From positions 1 through 42,034 of the forward strand of contig JALQUZ010000008.1 of assembly GCA_023263695.1 (NCBI GenBank): DNA of 42,034 bases, in the 5' to 3' direction. Positions 22,530 through 28,787 of the stretch are shown here, piece after piece. The notes beneath the pieces are model-generated. The model saw nothing but the letters and a program-made list of their open reading frames with translations, had not been told where the DNA came from and did not search any database. The translations under genes were made by a program, and so were the position numbers. The stretch comes from Ilumatobacteraceae bacterium (lineage in GTDB: Bacteria; Actinomycetota; Acidimicrobiia; Acidimicrobiales; Ilumatobacteraceae). Every line of letters begins with the position of its first letter. The first letter of the stretch is position 1.

Positions 22530-23666
22530 CTAATTGATGTAGTTGCGCGGCATTCGAGCGCTCATTGAGCACACGATTTCGTAGCCAATAGTGCCCATTT
22601 TTTGAGCCCATTCATTGGCGGTAACAACTTCAGAACCCTGTGCGCCAATCAGCACCACCTCGTCGCCAACGCTCACTACATCATCTGCGCAGTTCACCAT
22701 GACCTGATCCATCGTGACTACGCCAGCAAATGAGCGGCGGATTCCACCGATCAGTACAGACCCGCTCTCCCACAGGCCACGCGGAACGCCGTCTGCATAG
22801 CCAAGCGGAATGGTGGCAACTGTTGAATCTTGTTCAATCACTCGTTTAAGCCCATACGACACACCTTGCCCCGCAGCAACTCGTTGCACGTGAGACACTC
22901 GCGCATGCACCGACATCACCGGACGAAGATCAAGTTGATGGGTAGCACCAAAAGAATTGGTGTGTGCATCGCCTGGAATTCCGTACATAGCAATGCCTAT
23001 TCGCGCCATGGTGCAACCAGCGCTTGCATCGAGCTTGCGAATTGCAGAAGCGGAATTTGAAACGTGTACGTGACGAACTTCAATTCCGCAAGCACGGACT
23101 TGTTCTACAGAACGCGAAAATACCGAAACTTGTTGTTGCGCAAACTGCGTATCGGCAACATCGGCAGTAGCCAAGTGCGTAAACATTCCTTCTAGTGACA
23201 GCCAAGGTGACTCAGCAATGAGTTTGGCAACCTTCGCTGCTTTTTCGGGCGACACACCTACTCGGTGCATTCCCGAATCCACTTTCATGTGTACCGTCGC
23301 CATAATTTCAAGTTCGTTTGCGGTGTTTGCAAATTGATCAATGGTTGTTTCGTTGTACAACGTGGCAATCAGTCCATACGAAATCATGTCGCGATGCTGT
23401 TCAGCTGGCTGCTCGCTCATGACCAGAATTGGAGCGTTTATACCGGCTTGGCGAAGCGCGATTCCTTCAGACACCAACGCAACGCACAGACCCTGTGCTC
23501 CTGACTGCAGAGCAACTCGCCCACATTCAACAGCACCGTGACCGTATGCATCTGCTTTGACAACTGCCCACAGTTGTTGCGAGCCAATATGGGTAGCAAG
23601 CGTTGCAACATTGTGGCGAAGCGCACCAAGATCAATTTGAGCCCAAGCCCAACGATGTGCATTCAT
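22530..23666 (-). CDS. alr: Alanine racemase
   Basis: A 378-residue PLP enzyme interconverting L- and D-alanine, supplying D-Ala for peptidoglycan. Lys37 in VVKADAYGHG forms the Schiff base with PLP, and Tyr271 in GQGVSYGLKR is the second catalytic base. HMKVDSGMHRVG is the substrate/PLP-phosphate region. MDQVMVN and the C-terminal GTIGYEIVCSMSARMPR complete the beta-domain. The length is typical. It lies six bases after acpS, and the acpS-alr-tsaE order is a common actinobacterial pattern, except that the NAD(P)HX epimerase/dehydratase gene often found between acpS and alr is missing. Confidence 0.97.
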   Translation of the reverse strand: MNAHRWAWAQIDLGALRHNVATLATHIGSQQLWAVVKADAYGHGAVECGRVALQSGAQGLCVALVSEGIALRQAGINAPILVMSEQPAEQHRDMISYGLIATLYNETTIDQFANTANELEIMATVHMKVDSGMHRVGVSPEKAAKVAKLIAESPWLSLEGMFTHLATADVADTQFAQQQVSVFSRSVEQVRACGIEVRHVHVSNSASAIRKLDASAGCTMARIGIAMYGIPGDAHTNSFGATHQLDLRPVMSVHARVSHVQRVAAGQGVSYGLKRVIEQDSTVATIPLGYADGVPRGLWESGSVLIGGIRRSFAGVVTMDQVMVNCADDVVSVGDEVVLIGAQGSEVVTANEWAQKMGTIGYEIVCSMSARMPRNYIN

Positions 23667-23672
23667 CGGTTT

Positions 23673-24038
23673 CTACTCAGCAGCAACGACAGCGACTGCC
23701 ACGCTGTCGGTATGTGAAATTGACACTTGCCACGACGTAATTCCACGAGCATCTGCAAGTTGTTTAGCGCGTCCTTCGATGCGCAACGTTGGCTGACCCG
23801 AGGACAACTTCATTACCGATACGTCGTGCAGATCAAATGCTCCCAGTCCAACGCCAAGGGCTTTCATCGTTGCCTCACGCACAGCAAAGCGTGCGGCAAG
23901 GCTAGAAACCTGGTCCGACTTGGCGCTCAGCGACTGCAATTCATCTGTTGTAAACAGACGATCTCGCAGCTGTGGGGTGCGTTCAAGTGCAGTACGAAAC
24001 CGCTCAATGTCTACCGCGTCGATGCCAATGCCCTGCAT
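23673..24038 (-). CDS. acpS: Holo-[acyl-carrier-protein] synthase AcpS
   Basis: A 121-residue 4'-phosphopantetheinyl transferase that activates the fatty-acid acyl carrier protein using CoA. The Mg-binding Asp7 (GIGIDAVDI) and Glu55 (RFAVREATMKALG) define the family, and the C-terminal SWQVSISHTDSVAVAVV is typical. The usual RFAxKEA motif reads RFAVREA, so an Arg replaces a commonly conserved Lys. The start is ATG 24038, preceded by a GTG at 24041. The start overlaps nothing but lies just after the giant glmS-like stop (TAG 24043-24041), so the genes are tightly coupled. Confidence 0.93.
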   Translation of the reverse strand: MQGIGIDAVDIERFRTALERTPQLRDRLFTTDELQSLSAKSDQVSSLAARFAVREATMKALGVGLGAFDLHDVSVMKLSSGQPTLRIEGRAKQLADARGITSWQVSISHTDSVAVAVVAAE

Positions 24039-24040
24039 CA

Positions 24041-27000
24041 CTATTTCCCGTTTTGCGTGGTGCGCCAGTGATTTGCCGATTCGCTGATTGGCAAAATAAG
24101 CAAGTCGGCAACCGAGACTTCAGCCAACCGATCTTCGCTGAATGAACCTTCAGTTTCCGTTACCCAGTCAACAAGTCGGTTGTACCGATCGTCATAACCC
24201 TGCAACACATTCTTCATGGTTGACGAAGGCAAACGATCGTGGAACAACACGTGCAGCAAAGTGATGCCAGTTGTTTCCGTTCCTTTTGCTTCTGGAACAA
24301 AGATCACGGTGCGGTCATCGCGGCGACCGCGGGCAACCAACACATTGCGATCGCTTGCAACACGATGCTTGGTTCCTACCAATACGGAATTGCCATCAAC
24401 TCGCGATGTGAGTTCAAGTGAAATGCCACCCCGATCAATCACCTTTACCGTGGCAGTATTTGCTTCAACATTGCCTTCAATGCCATAGCGAGTGAATCCA
24501 ACAATCGATGCAACAGCCGGATCAAGATCGGCAATCACTTTCAGCGTCTTGTACGACAAGCGATCGCGCGACACTCCTGCTTTCAGAACTTCTTGAACCA
24601 ACGAACGATCGAGCAATCCTTCATCGCTACGTGAAATTCCAACGGTGACCGTTTTCGCCTGATGTTTAATGGCGTCAACAGGACGTGTGAGTTCGTCGAT
24701 TGAATGAGTGAGTGCGCTGGTGAGATCATCAAGAATTGCTTCTGGTGTTCCAACCTTTCCGGAACTTTGTTGGTAAGCCTGCAGCGGATCATTCGACATC
24801 GCGTCGCGCAACATCGTGACTACACGAACCGCGGTGCTTGCTTCAAGGTTTCCGTCGTACATTCCCGTGGCCAGTGCTTCAAAGAACCTGGTTGCTGGGA
24901 CGCCAATTTCAGAGCGAACTTTGGCAAGCAGTTGGCTGCCTACACCACCACGTTCAACTGCATGTTCAACAACTTCTCGTGCCGAACGCAATGGACGTGC
25001 AAGCGAGTCAATTGCCAACGCAGCTTCGTAGCCAAACAAGTGTCCGACCATCACACTCAAAATGAACGCCACTCGTGGGTCAACTCGCGGTACAGAAATC
25101 ACTGCTGCAGCAGCATCGAAGCGTTGCTCCCCTTCTTGGGCAATCACAATTGGCAACGCCTTATGTGCACGATAAATAGCGATCTCTTTCGCCACGTCCG
25201 AAGCGGTGCCATCCGACAAACCTGTTGCGCACACGATGATCATGGGTTCGCACGACAAGTCAATGTGCTTCTTATCTTCAGTGATGTCACAGGCAATTGA
25301 CTTGTAACACAGCTCGGAAAGCTTGATTCGAACTTCTTCTGCAGCAACTGCATTGAAACCGTTTCCAACAACCGTCCAATAGCGACGAGCTGGAGCAAAC
25401 TGACGTGCTGCTTCGGAAATTTGTGGGCGTAGTGCTAACACCTGGAACATGGCGTCAGGAATTGTGCGCAATGCTGAAAGCAATTGATGACGCTCGTCGT
25501 TAGTACCGGTTCCCAGTGCTGCCGAAATCGCGCATGACAGCAAAGCGCCTGCAGCAACTTGCGAATAGAAGGCTTTTGTGCTGGCCACGCTCATTTCCAC
25601 GTCGCGGCCATCTGAGGTGAACAACACACCATCGGCTTTTGCCGACAGTTCGCTACCACGTCGGTTCACAATGGCTAATACAGATGCACCGCGCGTACGC
25701 GCTAAGTCGACCGTGCGATTGGTGTCAGTAGTAGTTCCACTTTGGCTAATTGCAATGATCAACGTGTCGGTCATATCAAGTTCCAACTGGAATCCCGACA
25801 ACTCGGTGGCTGGCAATGCATCTACTTGCACACGGTGGTCCACCATGGTGCGCAACAACTGCGCCAAGCTGCGACCAGCAATGGCTGCAGTTCCTTGACC
25901 AATTACACGAATACGCGTAAAAGTTCCGGCGGTGAGCTTTGCTCGAATGTCCTCTGGCAGCACCGTGGTGTCTAGCGTCGCTTCAAGCTGTCCGTTGCGC
26001 TCAGAAATTTTCCCACGCAACGTTTTGCGGAAGCTCAGCGGTGCTTCTGCAATTTCTTTCGACAGAAAGTGCTTGTGCTCGCCACGATCAATGTCGCGCG
26101 TCGTTACTTCGGCAATGTAAACGTTGCTGTCTTCAAGTGGAATTGACGTTCCATCGTAGGCAAGCATGCGCATGCCGGCAAGCGACCCCGCGTTATCGCC
26201 ATCAAGTGCAATGACCTGGCCGCGGCTAGACGGATTATTTGCATCGGCAAGTGACTCACCATCCATGCGCACGTACTGCAAGGTCTCTTCAACAACACCA
26301 TATGGCTCGCTGGCAACGATGAACCGATCTTCCGCAATACCGACATACAAACCTTGACCGCTTCCGCGTAGCGCAAGCATCATGGAGTTTGGTTCGTCAG
26401 CGCTTGCAACCGCAATTGCCACACTGCCTTCAAACTCGGCAACAGTTTCTCTAAACGAATCCACCAATGACATGCCAGCGGCGTTCTTGCGCGCGACAAC
26501 TGTTGGGATGACCTTTGCATCGGTGGTAATTGGTTCTGCAATGTGCAATCCATTGCGAACTTTGATGTCGGCATGGTTGTCTACGTCGCCGTTTAGTGCT
26601 GCCAACATGTACGGCGCTTCGGAATTGCCGCCCACTTCTTCACTGTTCACTGGGTGAGCATTTGGTTCAGAAATAATGCCCACACTCGCCCAACGGGTGT
26701 GCCCAAGGATGGACACTCGCGCCTGTGGCTGACTTACGAGCAAACGCAACAACTCGTCGCTTGCAACTGCAGTGCGCATTGCACGGGTGTTGTCACCAAG
26801 CTCGCCAATTTCAGCGGCAGCTTTGTACACAAACGACCACGCACGATTTCCAGCACCAACACGCACCGAGCCATTGGTGAACAGCACATCGTCAAGACGG
26901 CCATCAAGCAACGGAGCAACTCGCTTATCGGTTGCATCTAAGCCATGACCCCACACCAATACGTTCACACCAGCAGAATCGCGACCGCGAACCTCCATGC

Positions 27001-27466
27001 GATCAAGCGCCGAAAATGCCTGCTGAATAGATAGGTATGCGTTGCGAGCACTTGCGCTTGCGTCTTTGCCAGCCAATTCGCCAACAGCTTTTGCTGTGCG
27101 CAATCGGTCATTGCGCAACGACCAGGTGGCGTCACGCAGCGCGATCAGTTCGTTGCTTCGTCGTTCAACTTCGCGCGTCGACAACCCAGACTCCGATTCC
27201 AGCTGCGCTTCTGCCCCCGTTGCCAATGCATCCAATTGATCAACGCGCGACACCAAGCCAGTTACCAAAGCAACGTTGTCAATAAGGGTTCCAAGCCCAG
27301 ACTCACCGCGCAATGAAGCATCCGCTTCGCCTACTAAGCGGCCAGATTCAGCGATGTTTCCGGCAGTGCCAGCGGCAATTGCTCGGTCAAGGGCATCCAG
27401 AATGTCGGCGGCAAGTGGCAACGGTCTTGCCGAGGGCCGCGACACAACGCAGATGATGCCGCACAT
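24041..27466 (-). CDS. glmS: Giant GlmS-like glutamine--fructose-6-phosphate aminotransferase
   Basis: A 1141-residue protein, against about 610 for standard GlmS, which makes glucosamine-6-phosphate for peptidoglycan. Starting at ATG 27466 gives MCGIICVV, so Cys2 can be the N-terminal glutaminase nucleophile. The usual RGYDSAG motif appears as RGRDSAG only at about 160-166, so some 130 mostly helical, Arg/Glu-rich residues are inserted. The glutaminase continues with LGHTRWASVG (254-263) and ALNGDVDNH. GEHKHFLSKEIAEAP (about 462-476) leads to the first SIS domain (ISQSGTTTDT, STKAFYSQ). The second SIS domain has GNGFNAVAAEEVRIKLSELC, with K715, E718 and H734 retained. Residues about 840-1141 are an extra domain I cannot assign. 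The gene follows glmM by ten bases, which supports a GlmS role, but catalytic competence of the isomerase site is not proven. Confidence 0.85.
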   Translation of the reverse strand: MCGIICVVSRPSARPLPLAADILDALDRAIAAGTAGNIAESGRLVGEADASLRGESGLGTLIDNVALVTGLVSRVDQLDALATGAEAQLESESGLSTREVERRSNELIALRDATWSLRNDRLRTAKAVGELAGKDASASARNAYLSIQQAFSALDRMEVRGRDSAGVNVLVWGHGLDATDKRVAPLLDGRLDDVLFTNGSVRVGAGNRAWSFVYKAAAEIGELGDNTRAMRTAVASDELLRLLVSQPQARVSILGHTRWASVGIISEPNAHPVNSEEVGGNSEAPYMLAALNGDVDNHADIKVRNGLHIAEPITTDAKVIPTVVARKNAAGMSLVDSFRETVAEFEGSVAIAVASADEPNSMMLALRGSGQGLYVGIAEDRFIVASEPYGVVEETLQYVRMDGESLADANNPSSRGQVIALDGDNAGSLAGMRMLAYDGTSIPLEDSNVYIAEVTTRDIDRGEHKHFLSKEIAEAPLSFRKTLRGKISERNGQLEATLDTTVLPEDIRAKLTAGTFTRIRVIGQGTAAIAGRSLAQLLRTMVDHRVQVDALPATELSGFQLELDMTDTLIIAISQSGTTTDTNRTVDLARTRGASVLAIVNRRGSELSAKADGVLFTSDGRDVEMSVASTKAFYSQVAAGALLSCAISAALGTGTNDERHQLLSALRTIPDAMFQVLALRPQISEAARQFAPARRYWTVVGNGFNAVAAEEVRIKLSELCYKSIACDITEDKKHIDLSCEPMIIVCATGLSDGTASDVAKEIAIYRAHKALPIVIAQEGEQRFDAAAAVISVPRVDPRVAFILSVMVGHLFGYEAALAIDSLARPLRSAREVVEHAVERGGVGSQLLAKVRSEIGVPATRFFEALATGMYDGNLEASTAVRVVTMLRDAMSNDPLQAYQQSSGKVGTPEAILDDLTSALTHSIDELTRPVDAIKHQAKTVTVGISRSDEGLLDRSLVQEVLKAGVSRDRLSYKTLKVIADLDPAVASIVGFTRYGIEGNVEANTATVKVIDRGGISLELTSRVDGNSVLVGTKHRVASDRNVLVARGRRDDRTVIFVPEAKGTETTGITLLHVLFHDRLPSSTMKNVLQGYDDRYNRLVDWVTETEGSFSEDRLAEVSVADLLILPISESANHWRTTQNGK

Positions 27467-27476
27467 GGGTACTAGG

Positions 27477-28787
27477 TTACCGAACCCCGCCGAAGCGCTG
27501 TGATGCAACCTCAGCAAGCCCTTGCGCCACAGCATCTGCGGTTTCCTGCGATGCTGCTTCCACCATCACGCGAACAACTGGCTCAGTTCCGCTTGCGCGC
27601 AACAACACACGGCCTACTCCGTTCAATTGCTGCGTCGCTTGAGCAATTTCGGATGCAAGTTGTTCTGCAGGGTTACTCTCCACTTGCGCAACTCGAACGT
27701 TGATCAGTGTTTGTGGAAGCGACGTCATTGCGTTGCGCGCAAGTGTTGCCAGTGGTTGCGCTTCACGTCGCACCAAATCAACAAGCATCGCACCAGCTAG
27801 CAATCCGTCTCCTGTTGTTGCATGGTCACGATAAATAATGTGCCCGCTTTGTTCTCCGCCCAACACCAATCCATGTTCGTCAAAGGCGACAAGAATGTTT
27901 CTGTCGCCAACTGGCGTGGTAACCACATTGATTCCCACTTTGTCCATGGCTTGGTGAAAACCAGCGTTTGTCATGACCGTTACTGCAACCGAGTTTGACT
28001 TCAACTTTCCACGTTTGTGCAAATCAATTGCGGCAAGCGCTATGAGGTGATCGCCGTCAACCACATCACCAATATGGTCAACGGCAATCACGCGATCTCC
28101 GTCGCCATCAAAAGCAAGACCTAAGTCGGCTTTGTGCAAGCGAACTGCTTCGCTCACCACTTCTGGGTGTGTTGCACCACAACCTTCGTTGATGTTCTTC
28201 CCATTCGGTTGATCGTTCAACACAATGACCGTTGCACCAAGACGTGCAAACACCTCTGGCGCAACATCGCTCATTGCCCCATTGGCGCAATCCAATACCA
28301 CGCGAATGTTGGCAAACGCCAAAACTGGAAAAAGTCCAACAATGTGAGACGCATACTCGCCCATCAAATCAACTTGAGTGGCCAAAGCAGAAGCCACGGT
28401 TGCCGAACCAGTCATGTGTGATTCAATTGCGTCTTGTTGCGCATCGCTTAGCTTCAGGCCTCCATTGGCAAACAGCTTTACACCATTGTCTAAGTACGGG
28501 TTATGCGAAGCGGTAATTGCTGCGCTGGCACAGCCTCGTTTTGCAGCCAAAAATGCAATTGCGGGTGTTGGGGCTACGCCAAGTAGTTCAACCGAAACGC
28601 CACCGGCAAGCAATCCATTGGCGAGCGCAGTCTCCAACTGTTTGCCAGATTCGCGAGTATCGCGACCAACCAAAACTTTGGTGAAGCCAAGTTCACGCGC
28701 AGCAACCATCCCAAGTTCTGCAACATATTGCTCGGTGAGTTCCGTGAAGGCGACTCCACGTACACCGTCGGTGCCAAATCGAAGCAT
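27477..28787 (-). CDS. glmM: Phosphoglucosamine mutase
   Basis: A 436-residue member of the alpha-D-phosphohexomutase family that converts glucosamine-6-phosphate to glucosamine-1-phosphate on the UDP-GlcNAc pathway. The phosphoserine is Ser94 in TASHNP. The Mg-binding aspartates are D227, D229 and D231 in FDGDGDRV. The sugar-binding GGEQSGHII and the phosphate-binding LLRASGTEPVVRVMVEA loops are present. The start MLRFGTDGVRG is characteristic of GlmM. It lies directly upstream of the GlmS-like gene, so consecutive pathway steps are encoded together, and downstream of rpsI after 49 bases. Confidence 0.97.
   Translation of the reverse strand: MLRFGTDGVRGVAFTELTEQYVAELGMVAARELGFTKVLVGRDTRESGKQLETALANGLLAGGVSVELLGVAPTPAIAFLAAKRGCASAAITASHNPYLDNGVKLFANGGLKLSDAQQDAIESHMTGSATVASALATQVDLMGEYASHIVGLFPVLAFANIRVVLDCANGAMSDVAPEVFARLGATVIVLNDQPNGKNINEGCGATHPEVVSEAVRLHKADLGLAFDGDGDRVIAVDHIGDVVDGDHLIALAAIDLHKRGKLKSNSVAVTVMTNAGFHQAMDKVGINVVTTPVGDRNILVAFDEHGLVLGGEQSGHIIYRDHATTGDGLLAGAMLVDLVRREAQPLATLARNAMTSLPQTLINVRVAQVESNPAEQLASEIAQATQQLNGVGRVLLRASGTEPVVRVMVEAASQETADAVAQGLAEVASQRFGGVR

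Follow-up and report, generated by a model that had tools for sequence, protein, structure and literature searches.

In a 42,034-nucleotide stretch of DNA (the window) from a freshwater actinobacterium (Ilumatobacteraceae), we identified an extended GlmS that is, judging from its sequence and gene neighbourhood, very probably the organism's working GlmS. GlmS carries out the first committed reaction on the way to UDP-GlcNAc. We propose that in this enzyme the C-tail, an internal segment here, is held between a helical insert (insert 3) and a candidate sensor domain, and that the added parts regulate the enzyme; we give this statement as a whole, regulation included, a probability of roughly one half. 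Much firmer is the expectation that the protein makes glucosamine-6-phosphate by the standard route, in which we have high confidence.

Locus and reading frame

A preliminary description of this DNA had reported a GlmS-like open reading frame of 1141 codons at 24041-27466, beside glmM. We agree with that assignment and add the strand, which was not given there: the gene is on the minus strand, with an ATG start at 27466 and a stop at 24041-24043 (Table 1). The plus strand has stops throughout this interval. A second in-frame ATG, upstream at 27535, would give a protein of 1164 amino acids and falls inside glmM. GlmS needs an exposed N-terminal cysteine. Since initiation at 27535 would overlap glmM and bury this cysteine, we prefer the start that yields MCGII. 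The GTG start codon of acpS shares one base with the glmS stop, which suggests translational coupling and a glmM-glmS-acpS-alr operon. Past alr lie tsaE, a second TsaD-family gene (tsaB-like by position and size) and tsaD; beyond glmM is a ribosomal-protein/rpoA cluster. The long glmS is conserved along its length, at 44-97% identity, in dozens of genomes, and hence is not a chance frame; its retention at full length in these genomes also rules out a two-gene fusion and a misassembly.

Table 1. Features of the extended glmS locus (positions in the window)
Feature	Position	Strand	Basis or remark
alr (alanine racemase), downstream of acpS	22530..23666	minus	TIGR00492
acpS, immediately downstream of glmS	23673..24041	minus	NF000832, above cut-off
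extended glmS	24041..27466	minus	1141 codons + stop; NCBIfam PRK00331 E 2.4e-76, TIGR01135 E 1e-69, both under curated cut-offs
new C-terminal domain, residues 943-1141 (~199)	24044..24640	minus	predicted PAS/GAF-like topology (model); without sequence match; weak structural matches
GlmS C-tail VDAIKHQAKTVTV, residues 930-942	24641..24679	minus	K938 = E. coli K603; A602, K603, V605, T606, V607 equivalents in 29/29 long forms
insert 3, residues 821-929 (~+109), helical, between second SIS domain and C-tail	24680..25006	minus	alignment, model
second SIS domain	25007..25429	minus	alignment; Foldseek match to E. coli GlmS; K715/E718/H734 = K485/E488/H504 equivalents
first SIS domain	25538..25915	minus	PF01380
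remaining class-II glutaminase and linker, insert 2 within	26102..27022	minus	GATase_6 E 2.9e-10; R26, R73, N98, G99, D123 equivalents kept
insert 2, ~residues 193-245, with conserved FVYKAAAEIGELGDNT	26732..26890	minus	alignments; +51 residues vs E. coli GlmS
insert 1, residues 10-148 (~+134), nearly all helical, between nucleophile strand and remaining glutaminase	27023..27439	minus	alignment, model
glutaminase N-terminal nucleophile segment MCGII (Cys2)	27440..27466	minus	Cys in 29/29 long forms
glmM (phosphoglucosamine mutase), upstream of glmS	27477..28787	minus	TIGR01455, 465 bits, cut-off 447.55 exceeded

Position of the additional residues

The protein is 532 residues longer than E. 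coli GlmS, and a MAFFT alignment with E. coli GlmS and canonical GlmS of the same class, from which we took the block boundaries, distributes the excess over four main blocks and scattered short additions. Several features had been recognised in the preliminary description. The roughly 130 extra residues that it reported between MCGII and RGRDSAG correspond to insert 1, such that RGRDSAG begins at residue 160 rather than at residue 27 (Met counted) as in E. coli GlmS, and the N-terminal Cys and both SIS domains, which it had seen, are present. Pfam finds the first SIS domain only; the second is recovered by the NCBIfam GlmS model, by MAFFT alignment and by structure comparison. The insertion within the glutaminase (insert 2) was absent from that description. 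Where it had about 300 extra residues following the second SIS domain, we find that an insert is followed by an ordinary C-tail and only then by a new domain. Likewise, one of two stretches that it could not place, IKHQAKTVTVG, is the GlmS C-tail (RNLAKSVTV in E. coli) with the Lys603 equivalent; the other, SVLVGTKHRV, does belong to the new domain, where it surrounds the invariant GTK. The domain and structure searches that it proposed for the N-terminal insert and the C-terminal part gave Pfam and PDB sequence matches that were nil or at chance level, and folds were predicted; inserts 1 and 3 have no sequence relatives in Pfam or PDB.

Conservation of the catalytic machinery

The catalytic roles of the GlmS residues considered here are well established. 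In all 29 of a diverse set of long forms, the equivalents of C1, R26, R73, W74, N98, G99, D123, S347, Q348, S349, T352 and S401, together with those of K485, E488, H504, A602 and K603, are unchanged. This conservation rules out a pseudogene and a divergent paralogue without catalysis. Other residues, which do not vary in the canonical sample, are altered in all or nearly all long forms (Y28R, H77V/I, H97L, E351T, K487S, G505I, N600H, L601Q), and hence kinetics or substrate preference could differ.

By family criteria the long GlmS has the glutaminase residues (the catalytic Cys, C1, with R26, R73, N98, G99 and D123), two SIS domains and the C-tail Lys603. It departs from the usual architecture of about 610 residues ending at the C-tail, since the sampled long forms have 1118-1167 amino acids and the sampled canonical forms 607-645, and its TIGR01135 score is 235.7 bits, under the curated equivalog cut-off of 418.05. 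We infer from such sub-cut-off scores that the long form is a divergent clade related to GlmS, outside the equivalog as curated. An AF2 model (pLDDT 88, pTM 0.76) has E. coli GlmS (2j6h) as its best PDB match, with an E value of 1.9e-27 and a TM-score of 0.81 over the target.

Search for a second GlmS

The organism's own genome (91% complete) yielded one GlmS-like and one SIS-domain protein, both of which are the product of this gene; no canonical GlmS was found elsewhere in it. MurA is present, so the organism needs UDP-GlcNAc. Of 17 other good long-form genomes, several assembled as a single contig, not one has a GlmS above the cut-off, whereas all 14 controls were positive. Secondary matches in these 17 genomes are N-terminal-only, of about 220 residues, consistent with PurF-type amidotransferases. 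In none of the long-form genomes searched did a second, normal glmS turn up.

Among the loci sampled in the class whose stretch extends far enough, almost all have glmM and acpS flanking glmS, whether long or canonical, so the two forms occupy the same slot; in sister families the glmM-glmS-acpS slot holds canonical glmS. It is this slot, the kept catalytic residues and the lack of another GlmS that make the extended gene very probably the working GlmS, a proposal of the preliminary description that is now strongly supported. That description had also suggested looking for an ordinary glmS of about 610 residues elsewhere in the genome, of which there was none, and had named such a gene, together with loss of glutaminase or isomerase residues, as the combination that would argue for a different function; we saw neither part of it. 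Four genomes of other classes (L185-L188; f72, f95) have a long glmS without a recognisable glmM in the stretch examined, in contrast to most loci of the class.

Distribution and history of the long form

The long form replaces ordinary GlmS across much of the class. In a sample of 197 genomes (Acidimicrobiia as named in the records), 79 have the long form, 114 have the canonical form and 4 have no match, and no family listed holds both. Across the phylum, we detected the C-terminal region in 39 of 397 sampled genomes, seven of these outside the class. The records of relatives name Ilumatobacteraceae, Acidimicrobiales and Acidimicrobiia. In a scan of genome contigs, the best 80 matches listed are apparently all actinobacterial; one of these 80, with 71% identity, is labelled Acidobacteria and is probably misnamed. 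No long glmS was found on plasmids. At one locus (L065; G046:C1:1178000-1184500) the long glmS is in two frames, with a break near residue 738 (812 + 431 aa), representing either an assembly frameshift or a two-gene form.

In a tree of the core, a fully supported branch sets all long forms apart; its length, 5.97 changes per site, is saturated. Mean core identity is 64% within long forms, 52% within canonical forms and 29% between the two. By these core comparisons the long forms are one clade, far from canonical GlmS. When mapped on a GlmM tree, which served as an approximate stand-in for the species tree, the form switches eight times by parsimony, and two of the changes are forced by well-supported branches; hence, GlmS form has probably been lost or exchanged more than once. 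The preliminary description had cautioned that its novelty would be reduced if the extended form were the norm across many bacteria. This applies in part, as many families of the class have the extended form as their norm. We found no relevant description of a long GlmS in Acidimicrobiia in the open-access literature searched. The long GlmS is thus a widespread variant rather than a one-off, and apparently an undescribed one.

A candidate sensor domain at the C terminus

Predicted alone, residues 944-1141 fold with high confidence (pLDDT 93, pTM 0.88). The order of elements in the model is helices, two strands, helices, three strands, helices (aa-bb-aa-bbb-aa), which matches the element order of PAS/GAF folds, where a sheet of five antiparallel strands has helices placed between the second strand and the third; structural matches are weak. 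The domain has no Pfam or PDB sequence match, a Foldseek search against the PDB returned nothing below E 1e-3, with listed TM-scores of at most 0.51, and no viral relative was found in BFVD below E 0.02. The top weak Foldseek match is a mycobacterial large glutamate dehydrogenase (E 3e-3, probability 0.99), and the weak matches are mostly to PAS, GAF, LOV and Cache sensor domains. We take the PAS/GAF-like resemblance as a lead on the fold, not as a family assignment, and regard the predicted domain as a possible sensor-like domain. The motifs GTK, D-R, GY and R-Y are strongly conserved within it. The suggestion in the preliminary description that the added domains are regulatory or partner-binding fits a separately folding PAS/GAF-like domain of this kind.

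Proposed mechanism and relation to known enzymes

In the standard route, which we expect with high confidence to apply here, Cys2 would hydrolyse glutamine, and the ammonia would reach fructose-6-phosphate bound between the two SIS domains, where K938, H734 and E718 take part. Insert 1 would probably form an extra helical interface on the glutaminase. A weaker step is that the C-tail would be gripped by insert 3 on one side and the PAS/GAF-like domain on the other; closure of the tail and coupling of the glutaminase and isomerase domains would then depend on the added parts and respond to a bound metabolite. In GlmS and GFAT the C-tail acts as the principal mobile segment linking the two domains and contributes residues to both active sites, and in E. 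coli GlmS a salt bridge formed by the terminal Glu608 restrains its movement (PMC8041777). In ordinary GlmS the C-tail is a free end, whereas in the long form it is internal, with insert 3 before it and the new domain after it, and it is this placement that points to control of tail closure. The model gives the C-tail low confidence (pLDDT <50 at 937-949) and so is no structural evidence for such gating. With moderate to low confidence, we suggest that the added parts regulate the enzyme.

The long form has in common with canonical GlmS (TIGR01135/PRK00331; E. coli 2j6h, 1jxa) the class-II glutaminase, two SIS domains, catalytic residues, C-tail lysine and, within the class, the glmM-glmS-acpS neighbourhood; it differs in its additional length, a core identity of 26-29%, a sub-cut-off score and a C-tail that is not C-terminal. 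Eukaryotic GFAT-1 (6r4e and others) has the same core and catalysis. It differs from the long GlmS in its length of about 680 residues, in being controlled at the isomerase domain and linker, and in lacking insert 1, insert 3 and the C-terminal domain. Regulation of GFAT acts through domain coupling, by UDP-GlcNAc (PMC7000685, PMC8041777), and the eukaryotic enzymes differ from the prokaryotic ones chiefly in being feedback-inhibited by UDP-GlcNAc (PMC7000685). In the mycobacterial large glutamate dehydrogenase mL-GDH180 (7jsr), an enlarged enzyme of nitrogen metabolism, PAS-type and ACT-like domains have been proposed as sensors (PMC8175468); its likeness to our C-terminal domain is one of fold only, and its catalytic core is unrelated. 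The SIS-domain sugar isomerases and NagB-II (8eol, 3hba) also have SIS domains and match the long GlmS with weaker scores. These enzymes are not known to have a glutaminase or the C-tail lysine.

A widespread bacterial GlmS with a possible sensor domain on its mobile C-tail would offer a natural test of control by domain coupling. A more extended reading, which we consider tentative and rather unlikely as a whole, is that of a separate bacterial GlmS lineage in which the C-tail, an internal segment lying between the two active sites, is tethered to a ligand-sensing PAS/GAF-like domain. Allosteric (possibly end-product) control of the first committed step towards cell-wall precursors would then have evolved independently of eukaryotic GFAT, and long and canonical forms would have replaced each other repeatedly at one chromosomal locus. 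Because the long GlmS scores far below the curated cut-off, automatic annotation may show an apparent gap in cell-wall precursor synthesis in these actinobacteria.

Alternative explanations

The strongest competitor to a regulated enzyme is a working GlmS in which the added blocks are structural, providing a different oligomer or replacing core contacts, without ligand sensing. We consider this a substantial possibility, somewhat less probable than our proposal: the helical inserts 1 and 3 could serve as interfaces in an oligomer, a core so far diverged (29% identity to canonical GlmS) would fit a rebuilt quaternary structure, and the C-terminal domain has weak structural matches, but the conserved motifs of that domain and its confident fold in isolation suggest a module more than a brace. 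It is improbable that the protein is instead a glutamine-dependent aminotransferase whose substrate is some sugar phosphate different from fructose-6-phosphate, with glucosamine-6-phosphate supplied by salvage or an unrelated enzyme. The very long branch from canonical GlmS and the several changed invariant residues would allow for it; however, the gene adjoins glmM in the canonical slot, the 17 good long-form genomes have no other GlmS, and the equivalents of K603, H504, E488, K485, S347, Q348, S349 and T352 are kept in 29/29 long forms.

We also considered whether the C-terminal domain performs the next step of the pathway, for example as an acetyltransferase that replaces the acetyltransferase half of GlmU, given that in the window's order GlmU stops short of its acetyltransferase catalytic residues. 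Members of the order with canonical GlmS also have a truncated GlmU, though, while long-form genomes outside the order keep the full protein, and neither Pfam nor the best Foldseek results include an acetyltransferase. Since the state of GlmU tracks taxonomic order and not GlmS form, we reject this replacement, which seems to us the most improbable of the readings weighed here. In the window's own genus there is no strong GlmU match (best E 1e-15 to 1e-17). Across the order, GlmU ends at about E. coli residue 347, short of the catalytic His363/Asn386 region, whichever GlmS form is present (G000 and relatives; L205-L210, L212), and in the tested genomes outside the order it is full length (L211).
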